Shown here one piece after another: positions 9,435 to 44,060 of a DNA stretch of 64,000 nt. The translations under genes were made by a program, and so were the position numbers. Below the pieces are notes generated by a model. It made no database searches. It had not been told where the DNA came from and saw nothing but the letters and a program-made list of their open reading frames with translations. The number at the start of each line of letters is the position of its first letter. Within the stretch, counting starts at the first letter, position 1. Origin of the DNA: Cryobacterium sinapicolor (GTDB taxonomy: Bacteria; Actinomycetota; Actinomycetes; Actinomycetales; Microbacteriaceae); assembly GCF_004403465.1 (NCBI RefSeq), contig NZ_SOGQ01000077.1, positions 62,001 to 126,000 on the forward strand. The letters run 5' to 3'.

Positions 9435-9511
9435 AATTCGACGGAGATTTTCGCTGTATCGCCCTGAAACGCGGCCAAAAGGCTGTTTTTCGACAAAATC
9501 TCCGTCGAATT
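9435..9511. repeat. Palindromic intergenic repeat, copy A
   Basis: The left arm at 9435-9451 (AATTCGACGGAGATTTT) and right arm at 9495-9511 are perfect 17-nt inverted repeats around a 43-nt loop, which itself holds a weaker AAAC..GGCC / GGC..GTTT pairing. The element lies between two convergent genes (UvrA-like and dnaE). Copies B (43984) and C (63980) share the 15-nt core AATTCGACGGAGATT. There is no T-run after either arm, so it is not a classical intrinsic terminator. Confidence 0.9.
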
Positions 9512-9546
9512 CGTTCGAGACGACTGTTCGACTGGGACCCAACCGG

Positions 9547-12500
9547 CTAGGTCAGGCAGTTCGGCCCGAGCAGGCTCTTGAGCTCCCCGAACAGGTCGGC
9601 GCTGATCTTCACGTGGTGGGGCAGCTCGAACACCCGGGCCGTGTGGCCCTTCACCAGCTTGAGCCGCACCTCCGAGCTGCCGATATGGCGGGTGATGACC
9701 TCACCCAACGCCGTCACCGTGTCGGTCGTGGCCCGGGATTCCGCCAGCGTCACGGTCAGCGTCCCGGTGTCGGAGGCCTGCCCGAGTTCCGGCGCGAAGA
9801 TGCTGTACGCGTGCAGGTTCATGCCGTCGTCGCGCATGCTCACCCGGCCCCGCACGACCACGACCGAGTCGCTGATCAGGTCGGGCGAGAACTCCTGGTA
9901 CGCCTTGCCCATGAACATCACGGCGATCTCTCCGCCGAAGTCCTCGACCTGGATGATGCCGTACTGGTTGCCGGACTTCTTTGCGATCCGGTGCTGCACG
10001 CTGGTGATCAGGCCGGCGATGGTGACGGTGTCGGCATCCTGGGTCTGTTCCGACCCGACCAGGTCCACGATGGTCGTGCTGGCGTGCTTGGCCAACGGGA
10101 TCTCGAGCCCGGCCAGCGGATGGTCGGAGACGTAGAGCCCGAGCATGTCGCGTTCCAGCGCGAGCTTCTCCTTCTTGCTCCACTCGGGACGGTCCGGGAC
10201 CTGCTCGGTCTCCTGCGGGTCGTCGAACAGGCTGTCGAAGTCGAAGCCGACCATGCCGTGCTGCTCGTCCCGCTTGATCTTGACGGCGGATTCGACGGCG
10301 GCCTCGTGGATCTCGAACATGGCCCGACGGGTCGCTCCGAGCGAGTCGAAGGCGCCGGCCTTGATCAGGGACTCGACCGTGCGCTTGTTGGCCACCGGGA
10401 TCGGCACCTTGCGCAGGAAGTCGTGGAACGACTCGAACGCGCCCTTCTCCTTCCGGGCCGCGCGGATCGCGTCGACCACGTTGAAGCCAACGTTCCGCAC
10501 CGCGCCCAGCCCGAAACGGATGTCCGTGCCCACGGCCGCGAAGTATCCGATCGACTCGTTCACGTCCGGCGGCAGCACCTGGATGCCCATCCGTCGGCAC
10601 TCGTTCAGGTACAGCGCGAGCTTGTCGCGGGAGTCGCCGACGCTGGTCAACAGCGCGGCCATGTACTCGGCCGGGTACTTGGCCTTGAGGTACGCGGTCC
10701 AATACGAGAGCACCCCGTAGGCGGCCGAGTGCGCCTTGTTGAAGGCGTAGTCGGAAAACGGGAGCAGGATGTCCCAGACGGTCTTCACCGCCTCCATGGA
10801 GTAGCCGTTGGCGACCATGCCGCCGGAGAAGCCCTCGAACTGCTTGTCCAGCTCCGACTTCTTCTTCTTGCCCATTGCACGGCGCAGCAGGTCGGCCTGG
10901 CCCAGGGAGAACCCGGCCAGCTTCTGCGCGATCGACATGACCTGCTCCTGGTACACGATCAGGCCGTAGGTGGTGCCGATGACGTCCGCCAGCGCCTCCT
11001 CGAGCTCCGGGTGGATCGGGATGATCTCCTGCTGGCCGGTCTTCCGCAGCGCATAGTTGGTGTGCGAGTTGGCACCCATGGGGCCGGGCCGGTACAGGGC
11101 GATGACGGCCGAGATGTCTTCGAAGTTGTCGGGCTTCATCAGGCGTAGCAGCGACCGCATGGGCCCGCCGTCGAGCTGGAACACCCCGAGCGTGTCACCG
11201 CGGGCGAGCAACTCGTAGGCGGCCGGGTCTTCCAGGCCCATTTCTTCGAGCACGGGCCGGTGTCCGCGGTTCACGGCGATGTTGTCGAGGGTGTCGTCGA
11301 TGATGGTGAGGTTGCGCAGCCCCAGGAAGTCCATCTTGATCAGGCCGAGGGCCTCGGAGGCCGGGTAATCGAACTGCGTGACGACTTGGCCATCCGCTTC
11401 GCGCTTCATAATCGGGATGATGTCGATCAACGGGTCGGAACTCATGATCACGCCGGCCGCGTGCACGCCCCACTGGCGCTTGAGGTTCTCCAGGCCGAGG
11501 GCTGTGTCGAAGACCGTGCGGGCCTCGGGGTCGGATTCGATCACGGCCCGGAAGTCGGCGGCCTCGCGGTAGCGCGCATGGTCCTTGTCGAACATACCGG
11601 TCAGTGGCACGTCCTTGCCCATGATGGCCGGCGGCATGGCCTTGGTGAGCTTGTCGCCCATCCCGAAGGGGAACCCGAGCACGCGAGACGCGTCCTTGAG
11701 GGCCTGCTTGGCCTTGATCGTGCCGTAGGTGACGATCTGGGCGACGCGTTCCTCGCCGTACTTCTCGGTCACGTAGTGGATGACCTCGCCGCGGCGGCGC
11801 TCGTCGAAGTCGACGTCGAAGTCGGGCATGGAGACGCGGTCGGGGTTCAGGAACCGTTCGAAGATCAGCCCGTGCACGAGGGGGTCGAGGTCGGTGATCC
11901 CCATGGCGTAGGCGACCATTGAGCCGGCGCCCGAGCCGCGGCCGGGACCCACCCGAATGCCCTGCTGCCGGGCCCACATGATGAAGTCGGCCACCACCAG
12001 GAAGTAGCCAGGGAAGCCCATCTGGATGATGATGCCGATCTCGTAGTCGGCTCGCTTCCGCACCTCGTCCGGGATGCCGTTCGGGTAGCGCTTGGCCAGC
12101 CCGATCTCGTTCTCCTTGACGAACCAGCTCTCCTCGTTCTCCCCCTCCGGGCAGGGGAATCGGGGCATGTAGTTGGCCTTGGTGTTGAACTCCACCTGGC
12201 AGCGTTCGGCGATCAGCAGCGTGTTGTCACAGGATTCCGGGTGGTCCCGGAAGAGGTGGCGCATCTGCGCGGCGGTCTTCAGGTAGAACTCGTTCGAATC
12301 GAACTTGAAGCGGTTCGGGTCGTCGAGGGTCGACGCCGACTGCACGCAGAGCAGGGCCGCGTGGGCGGTCGCGTCGTGGGCGTGGGTGTAATGCAGGTCG
12401 TTGCTGGCCACCAGCGGGAGCTTCAGCTCACCGGCGAGTTTGAGCAGGTCGGTCATGGTGCGCCGCTCGATGTCGATTCCGTGGTCCATGATCTCGCAGA

Positions 12501-43888: not shown

Positions 43889-43983
43889 AGCGCGGCGAAA
43901 ACCAGCCCTGCCCCCGGCCTCCACGCGACGCCGGGGGCTCATGCGCGCCGTTCCGCGGTGGTGTTCCGGGACGGCGTCCAACC

Positions 43984-44060
43984 AATTCGACGGAGATTGT
44001 GGCCTCAAAGCCGGTTTTCGGCCGGTTTGGGCCCGTTTTGGACACAATCTCCGTCGAATT
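43984..44060. repeat. Palindromic intergenic repeat, copy B
   Basis: Perfect 18-nt arms at 43984-44001 (AATTCGACGGAGATTGTG) and 44043-44060 flank a 41-nt loop containing a weaker CAAA.CCGG / CCGGTTTG pairing. It lies between the convergent acyl-CoA ligase and def genes. The core matches copies A and C; the loop does not, apart from a similar arrangement of short internal pairs. Confidence 0.9.

Follow-up and report, generated by a model that had tools for sequence, protein, structure and literature searches.

The genome of Cryobacterium sinapicolor contains a large, dispersed family of short elements with inverted arms, in which the arms are nearly invariant, the length is held to steps of about one helical turn (77 or 87 bp), and the otherwise near-free spacers carry A/T runs whose phase is fixed relative to the arms. 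Palindromes scattered through bacterial genomes are usually explained as hairpins or as remains of transposons; for this family, the steps in length and the phasing suggest that the duplex form matters. Judging from these sequence patterns, we consider the chances about evenly balanced that each element is a site of bent duplex with a phased spacer, whose two arms are bound by a candidate protein, and that it derives from a once-mobile repeat.

The window, i.e., the whole stretch of 64,000 nucleotides that was analysed, holds two complete elements and the beginning of a third, in the following setting:

7012..9411, plus strand: ABC transporter ATPase gene (Pfam PF00005), ending 23 bp before element 1
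9435..9511, no strand assigned: element 1, 77 bp (arms 9435-9449 and 9497-9511, spacer 47 bp)
9547..13044, minus strand: DNA polymerase III alpha-type gene (Pfam PF07733, PF02811), 3' end 35 bp from element 1
42056..43888, plus strand: AMP-binding enzyme gene (Pfam PF00501), ending 95 bp before element 2
43984..44060, no strand assigned: element 2, 77 bp (arms 43984-43998 and 44046-44060, spacer 47 bp)
44123..44626, minus strand: peptide deformylase gene (Pfam PF01327), convergent, 3' end 62 bp from element 2
63980..64000, no strand assigned: element 3, cut by the window end after its left arm and 6 bases of spacer

The two complete copies reported in the initial annotation are genuine, each being 77 bp long, and their inverted arms match perfectly over 17 and 18 nt, respectively; the outer flanks of element 1 read CGAACC and CGTTCG. 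The third copy, said to start at 63980 and to be cut by the window end, is completed on the same contig of the same genome (C65:125980-126056), where it measures 77 bp and has one mismatch in its right arm. Both elements 1 and 2 lie between convergent genes, in the case of element 1 the ABC transporter ATPase gene (7012..9411) and the DNA polymerase III alpha-type gene (9547..13044).

In the window, the 15-mer occurs five times with up to three mismatches against an expectation of 0.85, and none of 100 shuffles reached five. The assembly of C. sinapicolor (3.53 Mb, 96 contigs) contains 131 forward and 132 reverse arms with up to two mismatches, compared to 0 for the reversed control, and 100 pairs of exact TTCGANGGAGA cores 40-70 bases apart. 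The high genome-wide copy number that had been predicted from three copies is thus borne out, and the possibility that the core occurs only three times or at chance level is excluded. Across 57 Cryobacterium genomes, the number of forward arms per genome (up to two mismatches) ranges from 0 to 156, with 0-2 in the reversed control. The exact arm pair was confined to Cryobacterium among the 80 matches listed of 91. Of 398 genomes sampled from the family Microbacteriaceae, six contain the TTCGANGGAGA pair, namely C. sinapicolor, three other Cryobacterium, G004, and G081 (one copy); of 394 sampled from the class, C. sinapicolor alone has it. In agreement with the earlier failure to recognise a named family, neither a description of it nor the core string was found in the open-access literature searched (for the description, titles and abstract openings among the matches listed).

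A phage origin was considered and rejected. The 15-mer is present in 22 viral contigs, each time once and without an exact partner arm, and these occurrences are therefore chance-like. We also looked for a substitute palindrome (arms of at least 12 nt, length 40-130) in element-poor G141 (88 kb) and G302 (100 kb); there were two palindromes in each, none of them recurring. The matS sites have a Ter-limited distribution. A distribution of this kind was rejected, as the 43 elements listed for the G305 chromosome are spread from 44 kb up to 3.92 Mb, apart from an empty stretch at 157-757 kb. In the 1.1-Mb genome G081, which belongs to the same family as the host, a single palindrome with core TTCGAGGGAGA lies at C6:39489-39554 (L314); it is perhaps a distant relative or a chance occurrence.

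The extended arm consensus of 103 unique 77-bp elements is C[G/T]AAC[C/G]AATTCGACGGAGATT[T/C]TG, in which the 15-mer is perfect because it was the search key. For a sample not selected for perfect arms, we searched 649 kb of the C. sinapicolor genome for arm pairs at lengths of 72-82 and 85-90, allowing the forward arm four mismatches, its partner five and the pair seven in total. The four contigs of this sample were chosen for size and known elements, so that the density of elements on them is not a fair average. The search yielded 33 complete elements, 32 of 77 bp and one of 78 bp, with perfect arms in 57 of 66 cases; 26 elements had no arm mismatch in total, five had one, one had two, and one had three. 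A tail of decayed arms was not found in this sample, and the one unpaired arm site (up to two mismatches) was chance-like. Across a set of 214 elements, 49 of them with a change, arm changes are concentrated at both ends and nearly absent at positions 5-10 (CGACGG); many members of this set had been retrieved through their exact arms, and it also covers species whose arms deviate (such as G305 with GGAGTTT). G299 and G300 have fewer copies, and one or two changes are present in 36 of 47 arms listed for the former and 21 of 35 for the latter, chance hits among them; in the C. sinapicolor sample, this applies to 9 of 66 paired arms. The arms of these two genomes thus look as if constraint had been relaxed.

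Single arms at five loci (L063, L078, L055, L005, and L017, the last two near contig ends) are apparently interrupted by other mobile DNA, which we would guess to be of the IS1595 family. The string GGCTCTC stands at the identical arm position in L063 and L055.

While the arms are alike, the spacers are mostly unrelated-looking. What they have in common are A/T runs at positions 23-25 and 33-35 and at the mirror places, with an A+T content of 0.72-0.85 at these positions and mostly 0.1-0.4 between them. Across 132 elements (inner 41 nt), A/T spectral power at 10 bp was 1.33 per spacer, compared to 0.20 in flanks and 0.21 in shuffles. The periodicity, of about 9.7-10.2 bp, is phase-locked to the arms (coherent power 1.16 against 0.00 in both flanks and shuffles), and 110 of the 132 spacers lie above 95% of their own shuffles. 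On an A/T template, the median element score is attained at only 25 of 648,463 positions in the 649-kb sample, elements included. Using a wedge model with assumed parameters, we predicted a mean curvature of 71 degrees for 32 elements, compared to 39 when their spacers were shuffled and 32 for stretches taken at random from the genome, whose 99th percentile is exceeded by 13 of the 32 elements. The initial annotation was right that the loops are variable but omitted their main feature, which is the fixed length together with the A/T phasing.

The length itself is quantised. The 77-bp class accounts for 114 of 125 elements, a count narrower than genus-wide. A search of the 57 Cryobacterium genomes for exact-armed elements with spacers of 48-78 found 34 elements of 78 bp, two of 79, two of 86, seven of 87, and four of 88, distributed over 11 genomes, and none of 80-85 or 89-108 bp; at spacers of 16-46, five more measured 76 bp and one 73 bp. 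In twelve of the long elements (86-88 bp), there are five A/T nodes, near 24-25, 33-35, 43-45, 54-56, and 64-65 (counted from the left arm, first 75 bases), compared to four nodes in the 77-bp class. Exceptions are the element of 73 bp and one of 84 bp (L055) with a 7-bp GGCTCTC insertion in one arm. In addition, an 86-bp element in G323 (C28) may be a footprint, since its GGCTCTCCTGC string resembles that beside interrupted arms elsewhere. The length steps and the one extra node in the long class are most simply explained if the duplex is bent and the two arms have to be separated by a whole number of turns.

Fixed arms at whole helical turns around a near-free spacer point to a bent duplex rather than to the hairpin or cruciform initially proposed, and the arm changes argue in the same direction. 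Only 8 of 82 changed arm positions (214 elements) were changed alike in both arms, which counts against a hairpin because selected pairing should match a change in one arm by a change in the other. Consistent with this, agreement between the arms at the variable positions 16, 18, 19, and 20 was about as expected or below, and at position 0 it was 0.35 against 0.49 expected (204 elements, possibly including L156, a probable chance pair). Agreement exceeded expectation at the outer positions -2 and -3 (0.88 against 0.73 and 0.67 against 0.55), which may reflect species-specific flanks. Symmetric spacer pairing that would extend the stem was found at 0.381 against 0.403 expected in 165 elements. 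The spacers do fold more stably than column-shuffled controls, the energies being -12.99 and -11.80 kcal/mol, respectively (sd 0.19). However, about two thirds of this gain survives when spacer halves are swapped between elements (-12.69 against -13.12, sd 0.21), and long-range pairing in the spacer is therefore at best weak.

These data also bear on an element acting in RNA, whose transcribed stem would end or protect mRNAs at convergent gene ends as a bidirectional terminator or RNase III site. Such a role would fit the location at gene 3' ends and between convergent genes, arms that are perfect and able to pair, the better-than-shuffled spacer folding, and the fact that no obvious structure other than element 1 stands between the two convergent stop codons on either side of it. 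We nevertheless regard it as improbable. An intrinsic terminator, with a G+C-rich stem followed by a T run, was not recovered at element 1, the element examined for it: neither arm is followed by a T run, and a terminator pattern scan of 9380-9580 with loops of 3-8 allowed found none. Moreover, the arm changes are uncompensated in 74 of 82 cases, symmetric spacer pairing does not exceed expectation, and length steps of one turn with phasing are not expected of an RNA. A search of the window against Rfam at curated thresholds returned a sole match, an mraW RNA motif located elsewhere (32366-32463, minus strand) and just above threshold.

With regard to genomic context, 142 elements had enough surrounding sequence to be placed using a home-made gene caller. 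Of these, 127 are intergenic, and the family is thus mostly intergenic as well as dispersed and high-copy, with the conserved arms and variable loops first described; the other 15, among which L156 from another genus is the probable chance pair, overlap a called frame. The intergenic elements are distributed over 58 convergent, 61 tandem, and 8 divergent gaps, compared to 98, 263, and 105, respectively, among all 466 intergenic gaps of at least 30 bp at the same loci. Elements thus favour gene 3' ends and avoid divergent promoters, and in tandem gaps they lie at a median of 47 bp from the upstream stop and 111 bp from the downstream start. Avoidance of promoters alone could produce part of this pattern.

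Several loci deserve mention in their own right. Elements of 78 bp, equal to 26 codons, lie inside an open methyltransferase-type gene at L182 (1501-1578), L185 (1501-1578), and L211 (1438-1515); in L182 and L185, they are placed between the MTS and DUF7782 domains (Pfam), with the frame apparently kept. Local clusters of elements occur at 1.43-1.46 Mb in G305 and at L098/L020/L066, and at three loci a pair of elements with related spacers surrounds what is, by eye, an acetyltransferase-type gene. A mobilising enzyme encoded between close element pairs was considered and rejected, as the proteins there are, by eye, housekeeping-like, plus the acetyltransferase type. The former we take to be of LepA, PepN, and ProS types. 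A second dispersed palindromic repeat, with arms GTGGC(C/T)AACTCAGGA, a length of very roughly 110 bp and a conserved-looking interior, is present at about 22557-22660 and 68796-68900 on contig C56 (L297 8774-8912) and at 9998-10101 and from 139865 on C59; its arms have 19 matches with up to three mismatches in the 649-kb sample, some of them due to chance.

The suggestion of a mobile or selected family was upheld, with comparison between species giving signs of both past mobility and selection. We compared contig C56 of C. sinapicolor (180 kb) with the corresponding DNA of G304, G323, and G306, alignable over 126, 166, and 83 kb, respectively, accepting arms with up to six mismatches (nine per pair) and lengths of 75-79 and 86-88. 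The four stretches carry 9, 5, 6, and 1 elements, all 21 of them 77 bp long, and 10 of the 12 elements outside C. sinapicolor stand at C. sinapicolor sites. Off-consensus arm positions number 8 of 360 in the other species and 2 of 270 in C. sinapicolor. Orthologous spacers (16 pairs, 5 sites) have a mean identity of 0.51 in map orientation and 0.35 when reversed, compared to 0.39 (sd 0.10) for 80 non-orthologous pairs, while the aligned DNA is 87-91% identical. The shared sites, near-consensus arms and residual spacer identity together indicate that many sites are old and inherited, with arms and length held while the spacers drift. Replacement or re-insertion also takes place, given that the G304 spacer at the shared site 76860 does not look homologous (identity 0.17-0.28). 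At other sites, relatives are empty or have an unrelated-looking spacer. The site of element 2 is an example: among 29 orthologous gaps extracted from other genomes, two (G323 and G305) contain an element, and the spacers seem unrelated on visual inspection.

Copying is evident in G305, where most of 20 copies fetched (picked by eye for similarity) have a common spacer and different flanks; likewise, L076 and L086 share 0.91 spacer identity between unrelated flanks. Past mobility is clear from these sequences. One rival reading is that the family is a purely selfish miniature transposable element, with the arms serving as ends recognised by a transposase encoded elsewhere. If only whole-turn, bendable copies moved, quantised length and phasing would arise without any host function, because a 77-bp duplex must loop to join its ends. 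The related copies with unrelated flanks, the patchy copy number between genomes and the differing site occupancy of close relatives are all in keeping with such an element. On the other hand, the 33 elements of the 649-kb sample include no recent copies by eye, except for one local duplicate (C56 68656/68979), and yet their arms and length are intact, and many sites are common to several species. Furthermore, no transposase flanked by arms was noticed by eye at the loci examined, and no target duplication was evident by eye in the 20 G305 copies or in a filled and empty site compared between G305 and G344. Overall, we find a purely selfish element rather unlikely, if well worth considering.

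A transposase that requires a loop and a host protein that uses one would both explain the anatomy, and the two are not exclusive. The inherited sites with held arms favour a host protein for C. sinapicolor, while the related copies favour a transposase for the G305 species; the latter show that mobility matters as well, which counts against the reading as a host-bound duplex site.

Taken together, we infer that each element serves as a double-stranded protein-binding site and not as a hairpin. A putative sequence-specific protein would bind both inverted arms, and the phased A/T runs would bend the spacer duplex between them. Separated by about six (77 bp) or seven (87 bp) helical turns, the arms would point to the same side and could be joined in one complex by looping or wrapping of the DNA. 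The family was dispersed in the past through copying, chiefly to gene 3' ends, and in high-copy species many elements would now be maintained by selection that acts on their arms, length, and phase and lets the spacer drift. The most likely role would be local DNA looping or wrapping downstream of genes, contributing to chromosome architecture or to supercoil handling where transcription units end or converge.

A bolder extension, which we put forward tentatively and think less probable than its opposite, is that some Cryobacterium genomes contain about 100-150 nucleosome-like sites of 77 or 87 bp, each wrapped by a dedicated putative protein downstream of genes. If true, these would be a new chromosome-organising element that evolved from a miniature mobile repeat. 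The length steps and the phasing also suggest that little beyond the phase of base composition is preserved in the more than 100 near-free spacers. If the elements are wrapped by protein, they would provide a natural library for DNA-bending rules in a living cell and a handle on how bacterial gene ends are organised and on how mobile repeats turn into architectural sites.

Among the closest known systems is an element in G004, from another genus of the same family. Its arms (AATTCGAAGGAGATT) differ by one base in 15, it is 78-79 bp long, and G004 has 11 exact-core pairs. In contrast to the Cryobacterium spacers, those of G004 look related to each other and lack A/T phasing (7 sequences), and phasing is therefore not common to the whole lineage.

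The initial annotation likened the family to REP/BIME elements, and in layout this holds: the elements are inverted doublets of fixed spacing (33 of 33 at 77-78 bp) and extragenic (127 of 142). REPs have mostly been sorted into GTAG and CGTC families (PMC3733652, in the portion available). REPINs of Pseudomonas and others, as described in the available portion of PMC3116915, resemble the Cryobacterium element in their two inverted conserved arms, less conserved spacer of fixed length, extragenic location and high copy number; they are accompanied by RAYTs, and compensatory changes in them are common (PMC3116915). The Cryobacterium element, however, has a phased A/T spacer and a length of about 77 or 87 bp, compensation in it is rare, and the link to a RAYT gene did not survive: the PF01797 (Y1_Tnp) profile matched none of the 57 Cryobacterium genomes, including that of C. 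sinapicolor, compared to 5 of 14 control genomes. A RAYT of the Y1_Tnp type is thus already contradicted in these assemblies, and a REPIN moved by such a transposase is very improbable.

Like bacterial MITEs (Correia, ERIC, RUP, and others), the elements are short, non-coding and mostly intergenic, have inverted ends and have been dispersed by copying, as their related spacers and unrelated flanks indicate (compare PMC10969869, available in part). At the loci examined, neither a parent insertion sequence nor a target duplication was seen by eye. A difference from MITEs is that the interior is not conserved in high-copy Cryobacterium; the available part of PMC10969869 makes no mention of helical length quantisation.

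Finally, the elements could be loading or wrapping sites of DNA gyrase, as proposed for BIME-2 of E. coli. Both are intergenic, and in sequence pattern both have a phased composition like that of wrapped DNA, the alternation of G+C and A+T resembling the gyrase motif with its two periodic regions of 47 bp each (PMC6379681, in the part available). Positive supercoils are also expected to gather at gene 3' ends. Set against this, the gyrase motif is a degenerate 130 bp with a 36-bp centre and a 10.75-bp period (same part of PMC6379681), and the Cryobacterium element has 77 bp, near-invariant 15-nt arms and a period of about 9.7-10.2 bp. These differences in size, period and arm conservation make a gyrase site quite improbable. 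More generally, a link has been drawn between DNA-bridging proteins and the periodic spacing of A-tracts in prokaryote genomes (PMC3940949, in its available part).
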